Source of the DNA: Flavobacteriales bacterium | GTDB lineage: Bacteria; Bacteroidota; Bacteroidia; UBA10329 | Assembly (NCBI GenBank): GCA_021741155.1 | Contig: JAIOYP010000001.1 | Span: forward strand, 62,001-126,000 | Length of the DNA stretch: 64,000 nt | Reading direction: 5' to 3' | Part shown: positions 4,821-41,515 of the stretch, in pieces | Numbering within the stretch: position 1 is the stretch's first letter | Layout: every line of letters begins with the position of its first letter | Translations under genes and position numbers: made by a program | The notes under the pieces: model-generated | Told to the model about the DNA's origin: nothing | Databases searched by the model: none | Seen by the model: the letters and a program-made list of their open reading frames with translations, nothing else

Positions 4821-6176
4821 ATGAAAAGAATCACACAATTCACTATTGTCGCGTGCGCAGCTGTTCTCACCCTTTTTTCGGGATGTGAGAGGTATGACCG
4901 CGTTACCGATTCAACAGAAACATCGGCCTATTCGGGAGATTTTCTAAGAAAGTATTATGATTTACAGTGCCAGATTACCAAGGAAACTCCTGGGTTTTTC
5001 CCACCTCAGGCAGCACGAGCTTTCTCATACGTTGGCCTCTCTGGGTATGAAGCTGTAGTTCATGGGATTCCCAACGCTAAGAGTTTGGCTGGACAGCTCA
5101 ACGGGCTTTCAGCCAACTCGCTTCCTCAACCAGAGGAAGACAAGGCTTACAATTGGGCAATTGCTGCAAACGCGGCATCTGCAGAAATGATGCGCAAGAT
5201 GTTTGACCTGAATCTGTCGGAAGAGAATCTCCAGAAAATTGACCAATTAGAAGAGTATAATTACAGTCAGTTTTATGCAGCGAATCCGCTTCCAGTAGCT
5301 GAAAGATCTGCCGCTTTCGGAAAGGCAATTGCTGAAGCTATTTATCAGTATTCTATGACAGATGGTGGCCATCAATCGTACATGGATGCTTTTCAGTTAC
5401 CTTATTCTCCACCTGTTGGAGATCATTGCTGGATACCCACCAGTGCCACGGTCCATCCAATAAGTCCTTATTGGGGACAGTGTCGTCCTTTTCTGATTCA
5501 GAATGTAAGCGAAACGCAACCAGCGCCTCATATCCCACATTCGGCAGATGTCAATTCTGACTTTTATGCAGCTGCAATGGAAGTTTACGAGCAAGTGAAT
5601 AATAATACTCCAGAGCAGGTGGAGATTGCAAAGTTTTGGGCAGATGATCCGTTTAAAACCTGTACACCCGCAGGACACACATTTAATCTTCTCTCTCAAC
5701 TTTTGGAAGAGGATGATGCAACTTTAGCCAAGACGGCAGTTAGCTACGCTAAGTTGGCCATTGCTGAAAACGATGCATTCATTTCCTGTTGGAAAAGCAA
5801 GTACGATTTCGTACTCGTTCGTCCATTTACGTATATCCGCCAACACATCGACCCAGACTTTAATACCGTGATAGGAACACCACCATTTCCCGCTTACTCG
5901 TCTGGACATTCCTGTGAAATCGGTGTTGGCGAGATGGTTTTTACTGAATTATTTACCAATGGAGATGGCAATTACGAATTGTCGGATCGTACCGGTCTTC
6001 AGTTCGGTTTTGGTATTCGCCATTTCTCTAGTTTCTCTGAGATGTCAGCAGAATGTGCTAGTTCAAGGTTCTATGGAGGAATCCATTATCAAATGGACAA
6101 TTTGGAAGGATTGGTTACGGGAAGAAAGATTGGTCATAACGTACTTAATCAGATTTCATGGCCAGAGGTAAACTAG
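4821..6176 (+). CDS. Vanadium-dependent haloperoxidase / PAP2 family lipoprotein
   Basis: Proteins of this superfamily bind vanadate (haloperoxidases) or act as acid phosphatases at the same site. The 451-residue product has a lipoprotein signal with LFSGC (Cys22) and an all-helical body. The three binding motifs are intact: KYDFVLVRP (Lys327, Arg334), SSGH (His363, the acid-base residue), and SRFYGGIHYQMD (Arg416, His422), matching KX6RP, PSGH and SRX5HX3D. The spacing and the long N-terminal helical region favour the haloperoxidase branch over small PAP2 phosphatases, but the reaction and halide cannot be told from sequence. The 3' end overlaps the next lipoprotein gene by 19 bases. Confidence 0.85.
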   Translation: MKRITQFTIVACAAVLTLFSGCERYDRVTDSTETSAYSGDFLRKYYDLQCQITKETPGFFPPQAARAFSYVGLSGYEAVVHGIPNAKSLAGQLNGLSANSLPQPEEDKAYNWAIAANAASAEMMRKMFDLNLSEENLQKIDQLEEYNYSQFYAANPLPVAERSAAFGKAIAEAIYQYSMTDGGHQSYMDAFQLPYSPPVGDHCWIPTSATVHPISPYWGQCRPFLIQNVSETQPAPHIPHSADVNSDFYAAAMEVYEQVNNNTPEQVEIAKFWADDPFKTCTPAGHTFNLLSQLLEEDDATLAKTAVSYAKLAIAENDAFISCWKSKYDFVLVRPFTYIRQHIDPDFNTVIGTPPFPAYSSGHSCEIGVGEMVFTELFTNGDGNYELSDRTGLQFGFGIRHFSSFSEMSAECASSRFYGGIHYQMDNLEGLVTGRKIGHNVLNQISWPEVN

Positions 6177-6574
6177 GATTCTTTCTAGTCATTTTGGCGT
6201 TAGCTGCATTGGCTGCATGTGAAAATGAAGCAATGAAAGAAGTTGGAACAGATCCCATTCAACTTATGGCTGATTTACATTGCGAGGCTGTCTCGCTCAG
6301 AAAGGCAAGGTTTGAATTGGCTGATAAGATGCGCTTTATGGAAGATACCCTGATGCAGCCGAGTACTTCTGATAGTGCCAAAGCATTGCTTCAATCTCAG
6401 TTGAATGATTTGGAACCACACAAAGACAGCGTTGTCAATCGAAGTCTTGATCTTGCCGCGGTTATCAAGTCCAAATTGGATTCATTGATTGAACAGGAAT
6501 TCACAGAAGTGGAGCAGCGAAAAGCGTTTGATGCTGATTTAGCCACTGAGTTAGAGAAAAGAGGCTGTCAGTAA
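6158..6574 (+). CDS. Small helical lipoprotein overlapping the haloperoxidase-family gene
   Basis: The 138-residue product has a lipoprotein signal (LAALAAC, Cys21) followed by a charged, helix-prone region likely to form a coiled coil, ending in EKRGCQ. The start ATG lies inside the last codons of the preceding gene in another frame, so the two are probably translationally coupled. No family is recognised. Coupling suggests a partner or chaperone for the haloperoxidase-like lipoprotein, which is inference only. Confidence 0.65.
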   Translation: MARGKLGFFLVILALAALAACENEAMKEVGTDPIQLMADLHCEAVSLRKARFELADKMRFMEDTLMQPSTSDSAKALLQSQLNDLEPHKDSVVNRSLDLAAVIKSKLDSLIEQEFTEVEQRKAFDADLATELEKRGCQ

Positions 6575-6601
6575 GCACCGTTCAGATTCCACGTAGTCCT
6601 T

Positions 6602-6609
6602 TACTTTTG
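6602..6609 (+). promoter_or_regulatory. -7 box (TACTTTTG) almost abutting apbE
   Basis: TACTTTTG matches TAnnTTTG and ends only 5 bases before the ATG at 6615. Transcription would start at or just before the ATG, giving a leaderless or nearly leaderless apbE message. Confidence 0.55.
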
Positions 6610-6614
6610 CGTTG

Positions 6615-7604
6615 ATGAAAAATGCTTGGATTATTGCCGCGCTGCTGTTTTTGGCGGCTTGTTCTAGTGATGTGAGAAAAGAAGCCACAGGCTTCACGCA
6701 GGGAACTACCTACTCGGTCATTTATTACAATAACGGAACAGACCTTCAGTATCAGATTGATAGTCTGTTGCTTGCATTTGATCGTGTGCTTTCTACCTAT
6801 CAAGAAACAAGTTATATCAGTAAATGGAATAGGAATGAGCATGTTCCGTTGGAGCAATCTCACTTATTTAAGGAGGTTGTAAAACGCTCTGAGGAAATTA
6901 ATCAGCTTTCAAATGGAGCATTTGACATAACGGTTTCCCCGTTGATGAAATATTGGTTTGAGAACAATTGGCAGGTTTCACAAATGGATTCTTCGATAGT
7001 AGATAGTCTGATGGCGTTTGTTGGAATGAAGTATGTGGTCTTGGATGGTCAAGATTACGACAAGACCAATCCGCAAACGCAACTCGATGTGAATGCCATT
7101 GCGCAAGGCTATTCCGTTGATATAGTTGCTCGTTATCTAGAAAGCCTCGGGATATTCAATTATTTGGTGGAAATAGGAGGAGAGGTTCGCGCTAGCGGAA
7201 CCAAACCAAATGAAGAAAATTGGAGCGTTGGAATTGATGTTCCGAAAGAAGGAAGTTCAGAAACTCGGGAATTAGCCATGTCTGTTTCTCTGAGTAATCG
7301 ATCCTTGGCAACGTCTGGTAACTACCGAAAGTTTGTTGAAATCAATGGGGTGAAATATGGACATTCGCTCAACCCGCTCTCGGGCTATCCAGCCAAAACG
7401 GATGTGCTCAGCGCAACCATCATTGCAGAGGATTGCATGACTGCTGATGCATTAGCCACAGCATGTATGGTGATGGGGTTTAAACGTGCAAAAGAGCTGA
7501 TAGAAAAGACTGAATCAATTGAAGGTGTTCTCATTTATTCCACTTCATCTAAAGTTGAAACCTGGATTTCAGATGGCGTGAAGGCCAATACGCTTAACCA
7601 GTAA
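6615..7604 (+). CDS. apbE: FAD:protein FMN transferase (ApbE), lipoprotein
   Basis: ApbE transfers FMN from FAD to a Ser/Thr of target proteins such as NqrC and NqrB. With the ATG at 6615 (the track uses TTG three bases earlier) the product is 329 residues with a lipobox LAAC (Cys16), so it acts outside the inner membrane. Family motifs are present: NGAFDITVSPLMKYW, LDVNAIAQGYSVD, EIGGEVRASG, the GHSLNPLSGYP segment, and the metal-binding DCMTADALATA. It is about 3 kb downstream of nqrF but has its own promoter. Its substrate is probably NqrB/NqrC, inferred from function and proximity. Confidence 0.93.
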   Translation: MKNAWIIAALLFLAACSSDVRKEATGFTQGTTYSVIYYNNGTDLQYQIDSLLLAFDRVLSTYQETSYISKWNRNEHVPLEQSHLFKEVVKRSEEINQLSNGAFDITVSPLMKYWFENNWQVSQMDSSIVDSLMAFVGMKYVVLDGQDYDKTNPQTQLDVNAIAQGYSVDIVARYLESLGIFNYLVEIGGEVRASGTKPNEENWSVGIDVPKEGSSETRELAMSVSLSNRSLATSGNYRKFVEINGVKYGHSLNPLSGYPAKTDVLSATIIAEDCMTADALATACMVMGFKRAKELIEKTESIEGVLIYSTSSKVETWISDGVKANTLNQ

Positions 7605-32974: not shown

Positions 32975-33225
32975 GGCGATGAATTGCCTTATTTCTTGCT
33001 AATTGAAAGGTCTCGTAAACAGCGGTCTCAAGTTTTTTGCAACGCACAGTTTTTAGGCGCAAGTCAATTCTCGTGATAAAATCGGTGTTGATAGTTGGCA
33101 TGTGATGCAGAATCACATCCGCCAAGGCTTTTATTTAGGTCATGTTAATTACGATGTTCCTCAACATCATGAAATTGAAAAACCTTCTGAAAGCCCCATG
33201 AATAAAGGATTGCTATTTATCCAAA

Positions 33226-33360
33226 TGCTTCTGGAACTCTTCCAGCGGTAGTTTGGAAAATGAAAGTGCTTCTGGAATTCTTCCAGCGGTAGTTTGGAAA
33301 ATAAAAGTGCTTCTAGAACCCTTCCGGCAGCAGTTTGGGAAATAGAATTGCTTCTGGAAT
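33226..33360. repeat. 41-bp tandem repeat, about 3.3 units, each with a hairpin
   Basis: TGCTTCTGGAA recurs at 33226, 33267, 33308 (TGCTTCTAGAA) and 33349, an exact period of 41. Units 1 and 2 are nearly identical and unit 3 is more diverged. Each unit holds CTGGAA(N3)TTCCAG, able to form a small hairpin, plus a second TTGGAA that could pair instead. The period is not a multiple of three and no gene covers it. The gap 32975-33401 contains nothing else that I can support. Confidence 0.85.
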
Positions 33361-33401
33361 GCTAATGAATAAGAGAGCTTCTTTAATCCAAAATAGTGGG
33401 T

Positions 33402-34434: not shown

Positions 34435-34812
34435 TCAACCCCTTTTGAAATTCAAATTGAATATATCCATAAGAACGGCAGGCAGATTCGGTTCTTCGCT
34501 TTCCAAAACGTCATTTGGAAGATTTTTGTGGTTTGGAAATGTCTTCAAATTAGGAAAATGAGGAGCGTTATCATACCTGAAAATCAATGCGCCATTTTCA
34601 TCCATCAAGTGATAGCGATATTTCATTTTGGATGCTTGTTCAAGGTCAACGACCTCTGCAAACGAAAGTTGATGTCCGTTGGAGAAGACGATTTCACCTC
34701 GAATAAAACCTTTGTTTTTTCCGTAAACTTTCGTGGTTGTGGAATGCGAACTGATTATCGGCAGAAACTCCGAAATGACCCTTTCTAATTCTTCAAAATA
34801 ATCAAGGATTAT
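34435..34812 (-). CDS. TumE-like toxin with a doubtful start codon
   Basis: The protein (about 125 residues from ILDYFEELERVI) carries the TumE/DUF6516 signature: RGEIVFSNGHQLSFAEVVDL, KMKYRYHLMDENG, LIFRYDNAPHFPNL and HKNLPN. TumE toxins pair with an upstream TumA antitoxin, as here. No ATG is available. The track uses TTG 34869, which would overlap the antitoxin by 61 bases and add non-family sequence. At the position where coupled genes usually have ATGA, the sequence is ATAA (34809-34812): the antitoxin stop is kept but the toxin start is ATA. The toxin may be poorly expressed or silent. Confidence 0.75.
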   Translation of the reverse strand: MILDYFEELERVISEFLPIISSHSTTTKVYGKNKGFIRGEIVFSNGHQLSFAEVVDLEQASKMKYRYHLMDENGALIFRYDNAPHFPNLKTFPNHKNLPNDVLESEEPNLPAVLMDIFNLNFKRG

Positions 34813-35111
34813 GCAAGAGCGTCCAGGCGTTCTTTGCTTTTCAGTTGCATTTCGTAGATGCCCGCCCAAATCATATCATCCTCATCATCAGCTCGTTTTC
34901 CTGCTTGAAAATCGGAGTAGAAGTCTTTGGACTTCAGACCTTGTTTTACCTCAAATTTTTTCAGGTCAGAACTTATGTTGAGCAATTCCTTCTTCAACTC
35001 ATTTATCTGATAGTCAATTGCATTTTTGAAAAACGCATCCACATCAGAATGGGCAGCAAGAATTTTCTTTAACCGCTTTTCAGTAGTAGGTGAAAGATTG
35101 AAGTTCAACAT
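34809..35111 (-). CDS. TumA-like antitoxin
   Basis: The 100-residue, mostly helical, highly charged product precedes a TumE-like gene on the same strand, the standard antitoxin-toxin order. It has an N-terminal MLNFNLSPTTEKRLKKIL helix and an acidic tail region (RADDEDDMIWAGIYE). Family assignment rests on context and general character, since there is no catalytic motif. A pair of direct repeats lies just before the start and may be the autoregulatory operator. Confidence 0.7.
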   Translation of the reverse strand: MLNFNLSPTTEKRLKKILAAHSDVDAFFKNAIDYQINELKKELLNISSDLKKFEVKQGLKSKDFYSDFQAGKRADDEDDMIWAGIYEMQLKSKERLDALA

Positions 35112-35167: not shown

Positions 35168-35389
35168 ATGGAGTTGCACAAGTATTTGGTCGTCATTGAA
35201 AAGTCTGAAACAGGTTTCAGCGCATATGTGCCTGATTTGTCTGGATGCATTGCTACAGGAAGTACGCGTAAAGTGGTTGAACGCAACATCTACGAAGCGG
35301 TCAAATTTCATATTGAAGGGCTGAAAGAAGATGGTTTGGAAGTTCCGAAGCCGACTACCGAAAGTGAAATGTTGGTGTTTGCTGCTTAA
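35168..35389 (+). CDS. HicB-family antitoxin-like protein (orphan)
   Basis: The 73-residue product is a HicB-type partial RNase H fold: YLVVIEKSETGFSAYVPDLS, then GCIATGSTRKVVERNIYEAV. It lacks the DNA-binding tail of longer HicB proteins. A HicA toxin (about 60 residues, with a conserved His) normally lies directly before hicB; none is found on either side, so this is an orphan. It is divergent from the TumA-like gene with a shared upstream region. Confidence 0.82.
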   Translation: MELHKYLVVIEKSETGFSAYVPDLSGCIATGSTRKVVERNIYEAVKFHIEGLKEDGLEVPKPTTESEMLVFAA

Positions 35390-35397
35390 AGCAGGAC

Positions 35398-35416
35398 ACG
35401 TTCTCCGTAAGAACGT
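35398..35416. terminator. Hairpin after hicB-like gene
   Basis: ACGTTCT and AGAACGT pair around CCGTA, 8 bases after the stop codon. There is no long T run, so termination is uncertain. Confidence 0.3.
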
Positions 35417-35574
35417 TTAAGATTCTTGGCTGATAGATAGTTCAAAAGGAGATTTCAGATATGAGAATTCGGACGTCAGAATTTTGCGCGAAGGTCGTTA
35501 AATCCTCTGTGTCATGCTGAACTTGTTTCTGTAAGCTAATACAGCATTTGTCAAGCGGTCAATCTTCAAAAGCT

Positions 35575-36591
35575 CTACACAAATAGATGCTTTTTTATTT
35601 GGCGTCTGAAATTCACATATTCCTTCAAAAGATTTCGCACGGCTAAATCAATATCATCTTCTCTTTTTCGACTTCCTTGAATAAACTCCTGGTTATCCCC
35701 ACGAAACCGTTCCTCATCAAGTTTAAGACTGTAGTAAGAATAATCTGTAATTTCTTGTGTTTCAGGATTGACGTCTTTTTTAGATACAAGTCCTGAATAA
35801 GAACCTAGTGTTGCCAACGTATTGTCCAATTCCGCCAATAGCACCTGCCCAGCAGCGTTAATGTCAGGATTCAAAAACTCATTTCCTACCTCATTCAAAA
35901 AGCGCTGCAAACTATTGAGTATATCGAATTCGTTTCGCTCGACAATGCGATTAACACAAATGCTATTTAGAAAAAGTTTGAAGTCTTTTTCGGATATAAT
36001 TTCATTAAATGAGGCAAACTGCTTTTTATCATGAATAATCTCACCTCCCTGATTTTCGTTGGCAATGATGTTATCGTATTTCTGAATAATATTCTTAATC
36101 TCAGAAGCCAGCCAGCTTGATAGACCGTACTTATTTTCTTTCGCAAGTTCTTTCTTGTCGCATTTGAATGACAAGATTCGGTTGTTTCTTATGTCGAAAG
36201 GCAACTTGTCTATCTCCGAAAAAGAACCATTGTTTAGACAAATGATTCTTGCCTTTGAGAGACGGCTAGATGCGTAGCCAAGTTCAAACAATACATTTGG
36301 ATTTGGTGCGTTCCTATGTTTGCAAAACAGGCTTAATTTCGAAGTATTTATCAATGAAACATCAGCAACAAATATGTCACACGAATCGATTTTTGATTTG
36401 ATGATTTCCAAAATATCTGGACTACCGCTCTTCCCTACAGTGTCCTTATCGATGCTAGGAACCACTTGAATAGTATCATCCCTTTTTAATTCACTGATGG
36501 CTTTTTTAAGGCATTTTTCAATGAAGTTCCTATTGTATCTATCATCAGTGTCTGACTGCCAAGAATAGAAGATTGTAAATGTATAGGCCAT
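35575..36591 (-). CDS. TIR-like nucleotide-binding protein, candidate defence effector
   Basis: The N-terminal half (about 1-170) reads FTIFYSWQSDTDDRYNRNF, SIDKDTVGKSGSPDI, CDIFVADVSL, NPNVLFELGYASSRL and LPFDIRNNRI. This is a Rossmann-like domain related to TIR-like and predicted nucleotide-binding (CAP12/PycTIR-type) domains, with the Glu of FELGYA in the position of the conserved catalytic-type Glu. The C-terminal half (about 180-338) is helical with no family recognised, possibly a sensor or oligomerisation region. It follows the membrane YD-repeat-like gene by 30 bases on the same strand. NAD or cyclic-nucleotide activity is inference. Confidence 0.75.
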   Translation of the reverse strand: MAYTFTIFYSWQSDTDDRYNRNFIEKCLKKAISELKRDDTIQVVPSIDKDTVGKSGSPDILEIIKSKIDSCDIFVADVSLINTSKLSLFCKHRNAPNPNVLFELGYASSRLSKARIICLNNGSFSEIDKLPFDIRNNRILSFKCDKKELAKENKYGLSSWLASEIKNIIQKYDNIIANENQGGEIIHDKKQFASFNEIISEKDFKLFLNSICVNRIVERNEFDILNSLQRFLNEVGNEFLNPDINAAGQVLLAELDNTLATLGSYSGLVSKKDVNPETQEITDYSYYSLKLDEERFRGDNQEFIQGSRKREDDIDLAVRNLLKEYVNFRRQIKKHLFV

Positions 36592-36621
36592 TAACAGTTA
36601 AGTTTTAATTGTAAAAAAAAA

Positions 36622-37806
36622 TTAATACCAAGCAGCATCCTCCTTTTCAAACATTCTTGGGTTGGTCTCTTCATACCTGATTTGTTGCTTTGCCTCTCTA
36701 AAAAGGACTCCATCGTAATCTCCACCTACCGTTGCCCATTTTCTTTTAATCCAGTTTTTCTGGTCATCGTACTCATATTCGATTAATTCGGATTTAATCA
36801 ATTGACCTTCATTGTATGTGGCACGGCCTACTAAATTGTTGTTGCTATCATAGGTACATATAACTTCTTCTAGCATAGGCTCATCTTGATTCGGAAAAGA
36901 GTAATGAATCGTACGCCTTTTAATCATGTTGTCGCTTTTGTCATATTGAAAGAATGACTCTGTCTCTAATGCCTCCCGATTTTTCAATGTTTCTATTTGG
37001 ACTGCCAATCGTCCGTTAGAATCATATTTGAAATTAATTTGAATTTCTTCTATTAAAGTCGTTTTAACTTCTTCTATCAGAAAGTTTTCATACCACTCAA
37101 ATGTGTCTTTGGATGTGAAGTCATCCGAAAATAGGGATGTTCGTTTTACTTCAATTTTTCTGCCGTTTTCGTTATAAGTTATTAGTTCTTTATTATGTAT
37201 TTTGCCTTCTCTGAAGTGGTAGATTTCTATCGGAAAGTAACAGTCTTCATAAGCTATTTCATATCGCCCATCGGGCATTTCTTTGTCGACTCTTTGCTTA
37301 GTCGAACTGTACTGTGCAATGGACTCATAGCCTTTAGCATATCTATAATAGATATGCTTGCGGCCCTTAGTGCCTAAAAACCTGTTATAAGTTGAGACAA
37401 ATTCACTTTCTCTTTGGCGAGAATCATCCTCATAAACCCTGTATTCAACAAATCGAAGACTTGAAACGTTTCCTTTTAAATTTTCCTTTTCTAGATCCGA
37501 TTTTTCTCTCCACAGGACGGGCTCTTCTTCTAGCCAATAAGCAGGTTTTTTGTAAACAGGTGGGTCTGGCTTTTTTACCTTAGGAGTCAAGAGTAGTATC
37601 AACACGAATACCAATATCCCTGAACCTGTACCAATCCAAAAGTCCCATTGATAGCACGCAAGAATCCAAGTTATAAAGCCAATGATACTTGCGGTGCCAA
37701 GACCAATATTCTTTTGTACTGAATACCAACTCGCCAATCCTAAAATTAAGATTGCCAATAAGAGAAATGCGAAAACAGATGCCAGTGCAATTAGTAAATC
37801 AATCAT
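36622..37806 (-). CDS. Membrane protein with YD-repeat-like cytoplasmic or surface domain
   Basis: The 394-residue product has three hydrophobic segments (about 3-27, 36-54, 58-75), then a Pro/Lys linker and a long beta-rich domain. That domain carries irregular repeats of the type ITYNENGRKIE, FKYDSNGRLAV, FQYDKSDNMIKR and CTYDSNNNLVGR, like RHS/YD repeats. Such domains form beta-shell or surface-sensing structures. No toxin C-terminus is present. It is first in a two-gene operon with the TIR-like gene and has a good promoter upstream. Confidence 0.72.
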   Translation of the reverse strand: MIDLLIALASVFAFLLLAILILGLASWYSVQKNIGLGTASIIGFITWILACYQWDFWIGTGSGILVFVLILLLTPKVKKPDPPVYKKPAYWLEEEPVLWREKSDLEKENLKGNVSSLRFVEYRVYEDDSRQRESEFVSTYNRFLGTKGRKHIYYRYAKGYESIAQYSSTKQRVDKEMPDGRYEIAYEDCYFPIEIYHFREGKIHNKELITYNENGRKIEVKRTSLFSDDFTSKDTFEWYENFLIEEVKTTLIEEIQINFKYDSNGRLAVQIETLKNREALETESFFQYDKSDNMIKRRTIHYSFPNQDEPMLEEVICTYDSNNNLVGRATYNEGQLIKSELIEYEYDDQKNWIKRKWATVGGDYDGVLFREAKQQIRYEETNPRMFEKEDAAWY

Positions 37807-37823
37807 TCGATTTTAAGTCGAAT
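37805..37823. promoter_or_regulatory. Inverted repeat ATTCGA-N7-TCGAAT at the membrane protein start
   Basis: The repeat covers the start codon (37804-37806) and the space to the -7 box. It could be an operator or an RNA hairpin hiding the start. Confidence 0.45.
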
Positions 37824-37825
37824 AT

Positions 37826-37833
37826 CAAATGTA
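37826..37833 (-). promoter_or_regulatory. -7 box (TACATTTG) with -33 TTG for the YD/TIR-like operon
   Basis: On the minus strand TACATTTG matches TAnnTTTG. A TTG lies 18 bases upstream (TTGCATATTTGCC), which is the expected spacing. The box ends about 19 bases before the ATG. Confidence 0.6.
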
Positions 37834-37922
37834 GCTGAATTGGCAAATATGCAAGAAACTAAGCGCCAAATTCGATTATCAGATTGTAAACAAGAACGCT
37901 GCGAGAACAGTAGTCTTACTTA

Positions 37923-38093
37923 TCACGTCTTTACTACCTTCAAAACCTTCTCCGCAATACTTGCTGCGGTGGCAGAAGCCTCACATTTAGCCAAGTCTTT
38001 GGGAGTTCCTTCAAATACAACAGTTCCACCATCTTTACCGTCTTGGGGCACAAGATTAATGTCGTGGTCGGCACATTTAATAATGTCGGGTGC
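37923..38093 (-). pseudogene. Diverged second copy of the uvrA 3' end
   Basis: The minus strand encodes PDIIKCADHDINLVPQDG, then GTVVFEGTPKDLAKCEASAT and AASIAEKVLKVVK, followed by a stop. This aligns without gaps to the last ~56 codons of the intact UvrA (PDVIKCADHVIDLGPEGG and onward). Most substitutions are conservative and no internal stop is seen. There is no start, and homology ends near 38090. The intact uvrA ends at 38729, so the two copies flank the DUF4258/DUF2283 pair. Confidence 0.88.
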
Positions 38094-38119: not shown

Positions 38120-38380
38120 ATGAAAGACAAGGTCGTCAATATTCATCCTCACGCCAGCAAACGCGCCATTGAGCGCGGGGCAACGGAAGATGAGATCATA
38201 GAAACGGTCAATAATGGTGAGGAATTTCCAGCCAAATTCGGAAGAACAGGTTTCAGAAAGAACTTCAGTTTTGACAACGATTGGAACGGAAAACATTATT
38301 CGACCAAACAAATTGAAGCATACTCCGTTGAAGAAGAAGATTCTTGGATAGTGATAACGGTAATTGTTAAGTATTTTTAG
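38120..38380 (+). CDS. DUF4258 domain protein
   Basis: The 86-residue product has HPHASKRAIERGATEDEIIE, the H-x-x-x-R-x-x-x-R-G pattern typical of DUF4258, and a hydrophobic end with ITVIVKYF. The family resembles small RelE/BrnT-like toxin folds and often precedes a DUF2283 gene, as here (3 bases apart). A toxin-antitoxin-like role is suspected but not shown. Confidence 0.8.
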   Translation: MKDKVVNIHPHASKRAIERGATEDEIIETVNNGEEFPAKFGRTGFRKNFSFDNDWNGKHYSTKQIEAYSVEEEDSWIVITVIVKYF

Positions 38381-38383
38381 ACC

Positions 38384-38623
38384 ATGACACTCACGTACGA
38401 CCCACGATACAATATCGCTTATATCAAGTTGCGCGAAAAGACCGCAACCGTCAACTCTGTGAAGGTGAGCGAGGAAGTAGTGATTGACCTTGGTGAAGAC
38501 GGGACTATTTACGGTATTGAACTTCTAAATGCCAAAAAGCAATTGCAAGACAAGAATTCATTGCATTTGTTGTTCATCAACGAAGCCACAGGCGAAGAAA
38601 AGACGATCGAGATAGCAGCCTAA
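38384..38623 (+). CDS. DUF2283 domain protein
   Basis: The 79-residue product has MTLTYDPRYNIAYIKL, VVIDLGEDGTIYGIELLNA and a short C-terminal tail. These are the marks of DUF2283, a small beta-rich family often found after DUF4258 genes. It is the likely partner of the preceding gene, perhaps the antitoxin. Function unproven. Confidence 0.82.
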   Translation: MTLTYDPRYNIAYIKLREKTATVNSVKVSEEVVIDLGEDGTIYGIELLNAKKQLQDKNSLHLLFINEATGEEKTIEIAA

Positions 38624-38728: not shown

Positions 38729-41515
38729 TCAAACTTTAGCCACCTTCAAAACCTTCTCCGCAATACTTGCAGCCGTTGCCGAAGCCTCACATTTAGCCAA
38801 CTCTTCAGGAGTTCCTTCAAAGACAACCGTTCCGCCATTTTTTCCGCCTTCGGGGCCAAGGTCAATCACGTGGTCGGCACATTTGATCACATCTGGGTGA
38901 TGTTCAATGAGGATGATGGAATGGCCGTTGTCTAAAAGTGCGTTGAAGGCTTTTAGCAGTTTGTGAATGTCGTGGAAGTGAAGCCCAGTGGTTGGTTCAT
39001 CAAAGATGAATAGCGTTTTACCCGCATTCTTCCCTTTTGTGAGGAAGGAAGCGAGTTTAATCCGCTGCGCCTCACCACCAGAAAGTGTGCTGCTGCTCTG
39101 TCCGAGTTGGACGTAACCGAGGCCGACTTCCTGTAAGGGGGCAATTTTCCGTGCCACTTTTGGGTCATGTTCTGAGAAGAATTCCATGGCCTCATCCACG
39201 GTCATGCTCAGCACATCGTGAATGGTTTTCTCCTTGAATTTGATTTCTAGTACTTCCTGCTTGAAGCGCTGTCCTTCGCAGCTTTCGCATTTCATGATAA
39301 TGTCGGCCATGAACTGCATTTCAATCTTCACCGTGCCTTCGCCTTCGCAGACTTCGCAGCGACCACCAGCCACGTTGAACGAGAAATGCTTGGGTTTGTA
39401 GCCGCGCAATACTGCGGCTTTTTGGTCTGAGAACAGCGAACGAATCTCATCATACGCCTTTATATAGGTCACAGGATTGGAACGCGTAGAACGCCCAATC
39501 GGGTCTTGATCCACGAATTCTACATCTTCAATACGATTGAGGTCGCCATCTAATCGCTCAAACTGTCCCGTTTTGAGGCCGTAGCCGCCAAAACGTTTTT
39601 TGAGGGCAGGGTAGAGGATGCTTTTCATGAGCGTGCTCTTGCCCGAACCACTTACGCCTGTAATCACCGAAAGACAACCCAACGGAAACGAAACGCTGAC
39701 GTTTTTGAGATTGTGCTGCCGCGCACCAATTACTTCCAGTTTTCCTTTTGGTTTTCTGCGTGTGGAAGGAACAGGAATTTCCAGTTTTCCACTCAAATAA
39801 CCTGTAGTGAGCGTATCGGCAGATTGCATCATGTCGTCCAGCGTTCCTTGGAAAACGACTTCGCCACCGTGCGTTCCTGCTTCTGGGCCGATATCCACAA
39901 TCATATCCGCAGCACGCATAATGTCTTCATCGTGCTCAACCACAATTACCGTGTTTCCAATATCACGAAGTTTCTTGAGGATGGAAATGAGCCGTTCGGT
40001 GTCTTTTGGATGAAGTCCGATACTCGGTTCATCTAATATGTACATGGAACCTACCAAAGAACTTCCCAAAGAACTGGCCAAGTGAATTCGTTGTGCTTCG
40101 CCACCAGAAAGTGTTGCCGATTGACGGTTCAGGTTCAAATAACTGAGCCCGACATCTTTCATGTAGCCCAAACGCGAAGTAATTTCTTTCAGTATTCGCT
40201 TGGAAATTTCGGTTTCCATAGAAGAAAGTTCAAGCTGATCGAAGAAATCGGCCAACTCGCCAAGTGGCAACAGAACGAGGTCCGAAAGGCTTTTGCCACC
40301 AACCTTTACATAGGTTGCATCCTTACGGAGTTTGGTTCCTCTGCATTCTGGACAAGGCGTTTTTCCGCGATAGCGTGAAAGCATGACGCGGTACTGAATT
40401 TTGTAGCTGTTTTCTTCCAACATGCGGAAGAAGGCGTTCAGCCCTTCAAAATATTGGTTGCCATCCCATAGCAGTTGAATTTGCTCTTCGGTGAGTTCGA
40501 AAATGGGGCGATGAATGGGAAAATCGAACTTATTGGCCGAATGCACGAGCTGATCTTTCCATTTGCTCATGCTTTCGCCACGCCAGCAAACAATGCCTTC
40601 TTCGTAAATGCTGAGGCCGCGGTCGGGCATTACTAGGTCTTCGTCAATGCCGATGATATTGCCGAAACCTTCACACTTTTTGCAAGCGCCATACGGATTA
40701 TTGAAGCTGAAAAAGTGAACAGATGGCTCTTCAAACCGCATTCCGTCTGCTTCAAACTCGGTGCTGAATTCGGTGGTTTCTTCTTCGACTTGGATAGAAC
40801 AACGGTTGTTTCCCTCAGCCAAAGCGGTTCTGATTGCTTCGGCAATCCGTGTGTTTTCTTCCTTGGAATTGGTCACGAAGCGGTCGATAAGCACGGAGAG
40901 TTCGTTTCCTTCTTTTAGGAAGGTGCTTTCTTCAATCTTTTCAATTCGTTCTACAACTCCATTAAGCTTGACACGTGTGTAGCCCTGATGACTGAGAATG
41001 GTGAAACGTTTGCTCAAGGCTTCCTTTGGCATTACGCCAAAAGGTGCGAAAACCATCACTTTCTTACCGTCTTCCTGTTTGGTGATGAATTCGGCAATGC
41101 TGTCTACCGTGTGGCGTTTGACTTCGTTTCCCGAAACAGGGGAGAAGGTGTGGCCAATTCGAGCATAAAGCAGTTTGAGGTAATCGTAAATCTCCGTAGT
41201 TGTGCCAACGGTTGAGCGCGGATTGCTTGATTTTACCTGTTGATTGATGGCGATGGCAGGAGCAATTCCCGAAATCGAGTCAACTTCTGGCTTATCGATT
41301 TTACCCAAGAATTGGCGAGCGTAGGCTGAAAGGCTTTCGATGTAGCGTCTTTGTCCTTCGGCATAAAGTGTATCAAATGCTAAGGTTGATTTGCCCGAAC
41401 CTGAAAGCCCTGTAATGACGATGAGCTTTTTGTGCGGCAATACAAGGTCGATGTTCTTGAGGTTGTGAAGCCGCGCACCTTTAATAATGATGTTGTGTTT
41501 TGGGTCGGGCGTCAT
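38729..41515 (-). CDS. uvrA: UvrABC excinuclease subunit A
   Basis: UvrA finds bulky DNA lesions and loads UvrB. The 928-residue protein has two ABC ATPase modules: Walker A GLSGSGKSTLAFDTL and GVSGSGKSTLMKSIL, signatures LSGGEAQRI (twice), Walker B YILDEPSIGLH and IFDEPTTGLH, and zinc-finger cysteines (CKKCEGFG, CPECRGTK, CEVCEGEG, CESCEGQRF). The length is normal. Its 3' end has a diverged duplicate at 37923-38093. Confidence 0.97.
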   Translation of the reverse strand: MTPDPKHNIIIKGARLHNLKNIDLVLPHKKLIVITGLSGSGKSTLAFDTLYAEGQRRYIESLSAYARQFLGKIDKPEVDSISGIAPAIAINQQVKSSNPRSTVGTTTEIYDYLKLLYARIGHTFSPVSGNEVKRHTVDSIAEFITKQEDGKKVMVFAPFGVMPKEALSKRFTILSHQGYTRVKLNGVVERIEKIEESTFLKEGNELSVLIDRFVTNSKEENTRIAEAIRTALAEGNNRCSIQVEEETTEFSTEFEADGMRFEEPSVHFFSFNNPYGACKKCEGFGNIIGIDEDLVMPDRGLSIYEEGIVCWRGESMSKWKDQLVHSANKFDFPIHRPIFELTEEQIQLLWDGNQYFEGLNAFFRMLEENSYKIQYRVMLSRYRGKTPCPECRGTKLRKDATYVKVGGKSLSDLVLLPLGELADFFDQLELSSMETEISKRILKEITSRLGYMKDVGLSYLNLNRQSATLSGGEAQRIHLASSLGSSLVGSMYILDEPSIGLHPKDTERLISILKKLRDIGNTVIVVEHDEDIMRAADMIVDIGPEAGTHGGEVVFQGTLDDMMQSADTLTTGYLSGKLEIPVPSTRRKPKGKLEVIGARQHNLKNVSVSFPLGCLSVITGVSGSGKSTLMKSILYPALKKRFGGYGLKTGQFERLDGDLNRIEDVEFVDQDPIGRSTRSNPVTYIKAYDEIRSLFSDQKAAVLRGYKPKHFSFNVAGGRCEVCEGEGTVKIEMQFMADIIMKCESCEGQRFKQEVLEIKFKEKTIHDVLSMTVDEAMEFFSEHDPKVARKIAPLQEVGLGYVQLGQSSSTLSGGEAQRIKLASFLTKGKNAGKTLFIFDEPTTGLHFHDIHKLLKAFNALLDNGHSIILIEHHPDVIKCADHVIDLGPEGGKNGGTVVFEGTPEELAKCEASATAASIAEKVLKVAKV

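Follow-up and report, generated by a model that had tools for sequence, protein, structure and literature searches.

Two neighbouring genes of a Flavobacteriales bacterium, one for a membrane protein with a YD-repeat-like domain and one for a protein with a TIR-like domain, raise the question whether they form a two-gene defence system or whether the TIR gene is a defence gene in its own right with a companion at its side. An earlier reading of the letters alone (hereafter the sequence-only reading) had proposed the former, with the membrane protein as sensor of damage or phage and the TIR-like protein as effector. The window, i.e., the whole stretch of DNA analysed, comprises 64,000 nucleotides, and its features of interest are collected in Table 1.

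The gene pair and its insertion site

Both minus-strand open reading frames were confirmed at the coordinates first given, with the TIR gene starting 30 bp downstream of the YD gene on the same strand. The promoter claimed for the pair was upheld in part: the motif TTG-N18-TACATTTG is present 20-48 bp upstream of the YD-gene start codon, but with 4 occurrences on both strands of the window its frequency equals the chance rate and its position is the sole argument in its favour. The inverted repeat described over the first start codon did not hold up, as this region folds like its shuffles (z=0.10), and a start-codon hairpin was accordingly rejected as a regulatory element. A sigma-70 scan returned sites more rarely than in shuffled sequence, and Rfam gave no match between positions 33000 and 39000.

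Table 1. Features of the locus, in positions of the window
Feature	Position	Strand	Basis
TIR protein gene, 338 aa	35575..36591	-	ORF list, PF10137, AF2, Foldseek
Membrane YD-like protein gene, 394 aa	36622..37806	-	ORF list, RHS_repeat, hydropathy, low-confidence model
Putative Bacteroidota-type promoter, TTG-N18-TACATTTG	37826..37854	-	pattern and position
Insertion, content limited to promoter, YD and TIR genes	~35505..37921 (approximate)	.	empty site in genus-mates G002, G004, G006
uvrA 3'-end remnant copy; 155 nt, 84% identity with the intact uvrA end	37936..38090	-	
ABC-F 5'-region remnant; 115 bp, 91% identity with the intact contig-C62 copy	35385..35499	-	
DUF4258 and DUF2283 gene pair, between uvrA and remnant	38120..38623	+	Pfam; block also in genus-mate G003
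Intact uvrA, hotspot anchor gene	38729..41515	-	
HicB-like antitoxin ORF abutting the ABC-F remnant	35168..35389	+	PF15919 E=1e-10
TumE toxin (34435-34869) and overlapping small upstream gene (34809-35111)	34435..35111	-	PF20126 E=7e-21

The surroundings of the pair were compared with those in genus-mates. In three of them (G002, G004 and G006), uvrA is directly followed by the ABC-F gene. The order in the window is the DUF4258-DUF2283 pair, a copy of the uvrA 3' end, promoter, YD and TIR gene, the 115 bp ABC-F 5' remnant and the HicB-like gene, while G003 features DUF4258-DUF2283, a second uvrA 3' copy, a ParE-type toxin gene and ABC-F, and G008 a Fic gene, a uvrA 3' copy and ABC-F. By this comparison, a single insertion of ~2.4 kb brought exactly the pair into a hotspot which collects toxin-antitoxin (TA) and defence-type genes. 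The co-insertion is the best evidence for the two genes belonging together, and it is a single case. The TA genes and gene remnants which the sequence-only reading had noticed around the pair were found again as DUF4258, DUF2283, TumE and HicB-like genes and as the uvrA 3' and ABC-F 5' remnants.

Copies of the last ~56-66 uvrA codons stand behind uvrA in 3 of 9 genomes of the genus (the window, Table 1; G008:C49:45998-46195; G003:C210:3503-3670). Each copy brackets an inserted TA-type or Fic gene, and the inserts carry no integrase; the site is a recurrent insertion hotspot which duplicates the uvrA 3' end. As an intact ABC-F gene is found on another contig (G000:C62:18799-20649) and a 115-bp remnant of its 5' region near uvrA, either the genome was rearranged here or the hotspot segment was received from a relative. 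Besides, a 41-nt tandem repeat (three overlapping 59-nt copies spaced 41 nt, window positions 33223-33363) lies next to the AlgH-like gene.

The membrane YD protein and its absence from related loci

The three membrane helices read from the first gene are seen in hydropathy (hydrophobic segments at about residues 1-32, 33-53 and 54-78) as well as in a low-confidence model (pLDDT 52; helices 2-32, 36-53 and 56-73), in which repeated short beta strands follow. These strands agree with the claimed YD-repeat-like domain, placed at ~residues 105-360, but the RHS_repeat match is weak (E=0.0011) and with 19.7 bits stays below the Pfam cut-off of 22. Positive charges after the third helix (KVKK...YKK) suggest that the YD-like domain would face the cytoplasm. 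PADLOC gave no match to this gene. Close relatives of the YD protein were found neither in 197 relatives nor in 396 genomes of the phylum, where only weak YD proteins occur; those inspected are mostly of the secreted type and lack the membrane bundle. Secreted YD/RHS-repeat-like proteins of Bacteroidota (about 300 aa) share with the window protein a DLEK..LKG..SL..V.Y start and YD-like strands at 21-26% identity, but, unlike the window protein with its three TM helices and its linker, they feature signal-peptide-like starts and no TM bundle.

Relatives of the TIR protein were found at 78 loci, 54 in GTDB genomes and 24 in IMG/VR contigs, and further in 68 plasmid records. Among the 67 related TIR loci with neighbours, no membrane YD protein stands beside the TIR gene, and no conserved partner gene of the family emerged. 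The only other locus with a YD-like gene near the TIR gene, 222 bp downstream, is that of an uncultured Aquimarina (L051). This sequence (L051:1-8416) is an integron array of at least eight cassettes, including one TIR, one YD-repeat and one flavodoxin-like cassette. Its attC-like intergenic elements of ~200 nt are repeated through the locus, eight cassettes open with GTT-9-mers whose exact reverse complement begins their own attC-like element, and bottom strands form more stable folds than shuffled ones (z -3.3, -2.7). Since the TIR gene (4965-6224) and the YD gene (6225-7307) occupy separate cassettes, their adjacency there is not an operon. By the terms of the sequence-only reading, the two-gene system would be refuted if the genes were never neighbours in other genomes; in the loci compared they essentially never are, the separate cassettes of L051 being the sole exception. 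An integron-cassette origin of the insertion in the window was also considered and rejected, as complementary ends are missing and no integron integrase scored above the cut-off in the genome.

In a two-gene system, the YD protein would sense envelope damage or phage entry and cluster the TIR protein, or the membrane protein would open in response to a nucleotide signal from the TIR protein, the mode proposed for the TIR and TM proteins of the P2-like phage AC1 (PMC9122126). We regard such a system as doubtful. The shared strand, the 30-bp gap and the one promoter-like site are consistent with it, as are the position of the pair as sole cargo between the uvrA and ABC-F remnants, the published anti-phage activity of a TIR plus transmembrane protein system (PMC9122126) and the positive-inside reading, by which the YD domain would share the cytoplasm with the TIR protein. 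Against it stand the 67 related TIR genes without a membrane YD neighbour, the absence of close YD-protein relatives from the 197 relatives and 396 phylum genomes, and the separate cassette of the lone YD neighbour. The AC1 system is the closest published combination of TIR and membrane genes and resembles the pair in adjacency and as mobile cargo, a likeness of gene organisation: AC1 has three genes, whereas here a single three-helix protein with a YD-like domain was found whose pairing with the TIR protein is not conserved. It is unlikely that the membrane YD protein, facing the cytoplasm, provides a platform on which a Cap12-type TIR NADase is activated or restrained, both having moved into the uvrA hotspot as a two-gene defence module not known elsewhere. 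Of the proposed sensor-effector pair, the co-insertion as sole cargo stands at this site; elsewhere the proposal found no support. The YD gene is best read as a lineage-specific companion and not as a conserved system part, and the pair as a one-genome association.

Domain, fold and active site of the TIR protein

The second protein is predicted to be a true TIR protein of the Cap12/Pycsar type, in line with the first assignment. It passes the curated cut-off of PF10137 (Cap12/Pycsar TIR) with 26.9 against 24.7 bits, and this family matches 40 of 40 family members at E<=0.01. PADLOC returned its 'Effector' TIR models, one of them at E 1.5e-5, and PDC-S35. In the AlphaFold (AF2) model, built from a 40-sequence alignment (mean pLDDT 92.3), residues 1 to ~165 adopt the alternating strand-helix TIR fold and residues ~170-338 form a long-helix domain with a beta hairpin. 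The TIR domains of SfSTING (E 5e-5) and SPARTA (E 9e-5) rank first among solved structures in Foldseek, and the best match among viral models is a Cap12/Pycsar TIR (E 1e-11); whole-chain TM-scores are low (~0.3), as the match is confined to the TIR half. A lack of TIR/Rossmann structure, named beforehand as the result that would speak against the assignment, was not what AF2 and Foldseek returned, and the motifs FYSWQSD and FELGYA lie inside this TIR domain. A TIR-STING-like C-terminus was rejected, as the whole-chain Foldseek alignments have an rmsd of ~20 at TM ~0.3 and the TIR half alone counts. Likewise, a sequence search against solved structures gave nothing credible; its weak haemagglutinin and helical-bundle matches resemble C-terminal coiled-coil noise.

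The residues S10, N97, N99, E103 and D133 are invariant in 40 aligned sequences. By motif spacing and Pfam alignment, they follow the SfSTING active site, i.e., S10, R78, N80, the catalytic E84 and, roughly, D110 (PMC9402430), with two departures, Asn97 in place of R78 and a last interval of 30 instead of 26 residues.

The TIR fold might also cut another N-glycosidic bond, so that a nucleotide or nucleoside N-glycosidase or deoxyribosyltransferase of the MilB/DNPH1/NDT type would drain nucleotides during infection instead of NAD+. With E of about 1e-3 to 1e-2, Foldseek indeed also matches NDT and the nucleotide N-glycosidases MilB and DNPH1 (the latter two near 1e-3), and PF05014 (nucleoside deoxyribosyltransferase) gives a weak match (E 0.014; 2 of 40 members at E<=0.01). 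Still, PF05014 fails its cut-off (15.9 against 28.8 bits) where PF10137 passes, and the match lists of both structure libraries are headed by TIR effectors or a TIR-annotated protein, which makes such an activity improbable.

One TIR domain with many C-termini in defence surroundings

Members throughout the family share the N-terminal ~170 residues with the pattern FYSWQSD ... NPNVxxELG ... LPFD. Clustering of their C-terminal parts gave nine singletons and eight clusters with more than one member each, the clusters being without mutual similarity. One TIR domain is joined to at least eight unrelated C-terminal families, which appear interchangeable. The window-type C-terminus has nine members, including Chitinophagales, Runella, Flavobacterium, Aquimarina and Phocaeicola, and what had been called an unassigned helical C-terminus turns out to be a helical domain common to 8 relatives. 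Compared with the 'HLYD' type of other relatives, it reached 18.8% probability in a profile comparison. No STING or cyclic-nucleotide sensor domain was matched in the C-terminus by sequence (Pfam; window protein and 40 members). A tblastn search of a phage collection gave no match at E<=10, which was not counted as absence because the IMG/VR contigs contain 24 relatives. At L094:5007-8888, a family TIR domain forms the N-terminus of a 1294-aa protein with no Pfam match at E<=0.01.

The neighbours of the relatives, given here as a plain listing and not as an enrichment, agree with the defence context first proposed: restriction, NACHT, OLD and caspase genes, prophages and an integron. Among loci with the window-type C-terminus, the TIR gene is overlapped by a type IIG R-M enzyme gene (L042), adjoined by type III Res and GmrSD (L044), a NACHT-SNaCT9 NTPase (L043), a Z1 gene (L034), a trypsin-like protease (L064) or a HigBA-like pair (L045), or placed within the integron array (L051). 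Elsewhere, it adjoins OLD-type ATPases (L077, L093), a caspase gene (L085), a phage portal gene (L020) or a KAP NTPase (L060), and integrase-like genes lie near it in L030 and L032; the integrase-like genes and the HigBA-like pair were named from sequence only. UvrD and HipA genes also occur among the neighbours of other C-terminal types. Outside close relatives, OLD-type ATPases and integrase-like genes (three loci each) are the only neighbour families in more than two loci.

Further arrangements were observed in single lineages. In two Alphaproteobacteria (L067, L071), family TIR genes are located inside phage tail clusters, right before a tape-measure-like gene, and are prophage moron cargo. 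In four cyanobacteria (L086, L087, L089, L090), a related TIR gene occupies one conserved site by HicAB-like genes and chorismate synthase. A homologous secreted trypsin-like protease adjoins the TIR gene in two Bacteroidota loci whose TIR proteins differ in their C-termini (L056:6988-8571 and L064:1341-2516).

Very improbable is the absence of any defence role, with the TIR gene as a toxin-like addiction gene, neutralised by the YD protein, or as neutral cargo of a TA-rich hotspot: TA-type or Fic genes of genus-mates in the same hotspot and the HicAB-like genes next to cyanobacterial relatives would fit, but TIR relatives persist without a YD neighbour, and many defence genes and phage hotspots are among their neighbours.

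Comparison with known systems and proposed mechanism

SpbK of Bacillus subtilis is a single-gene TIR protein activated by the phage portal (PMC12847820), and Swarozyc (DUF4062) is a single-gene TIR-like NADase activated by phage portal proteins (PMC13174449). Both represent the closest published organisation, i.e., one defence-associated protein which combines a TIR-fold effector with an unrelated sensing domain, and the likeness is one of organisation only. In the family collected here, too, the TIR domain comes with an extra domain of its own, as in the eight C-terminal families, and no neighbouring gene is conserved; the TIR gene of L051 is a lone cassette. In contrast to SpbK and Swarozyc, the window TIR is of the PF10137 type and N-terminal, no DUF4062 was found, and the C-terminal domains are different and many.

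With TIR-STING (Cap12, CBASS) and PCTIR (Pycsar), the protein shares the Pfam TIR type, the active-site pattern and SfSTING as closest fold match, but its C-terminus is helical with a beta hairpin, and no CD-NTase or cyclase adjoins. The flanking genes are TumE, HicB-like, DUF4258, DUF2283, AlgH-like (Pfam) and intact uvrA, which does not place the locus in CBASS or Pycsar. Neither does it belong to Thoeris, as no PADLOC Thoeris model matched and no SIR2 or macro gene was detected among the flanking genes scanned. SPARTA TIR-APAZ has the TIR fold in common (structural E 9e-5), whereas the window TIR features neither an adjoining Argonaute gene nor an APAZ match.

It is thus fairly probable that the TIR gene encodes a single-protein sensor-effector, similar to SpbK or Swarozyc, of NAD-depleting abortive infection, of which the YD gene is not a conserved part. 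The N-terminal Cap12/Pycsar-type TIR domain with its NADase active-site pattern would be the effector, and the helical C-terminus would recognise an infection cue, e.g., a phage structural protein or a ligand. The TIR domains would then cluster, in an activation driven by oligomerisation like that of SfSTING and SpbK (PMC9402430, PMC12847820), and a shared active site would be completed between them. The clustered domains would hydrolyse NAD+, so that the infected cell halts before phage release. The YD membrane protein was brought in by the same ~2.4-kb insertion; in this lineage it may serve to tether the TIR protein or to tune it.

Significance

The description of single-gene TIR defences with their own sensing domain, such as SpbK and Swarozyc, is only beginning. 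The TIR protein of the window belongs, as sequence comparison and model indicate, to a widespread, little-described TIR family and is likely an NAD-destroying anti-phage suicide enzyme. This family puts one Cap12-type TIR domain on at least eight seemingly unrelated C-termini and is spread over several phyla as well as prophages, plasmids and an integron. Moreover, the uvrA hotspot, with its empty sites in sister species, shows gain and loss of such genes. If the C-termini are sensors, the family would offer a ready set to ask which phage component each of them recognises, and a family of interchangeable C-termini is worth testing.
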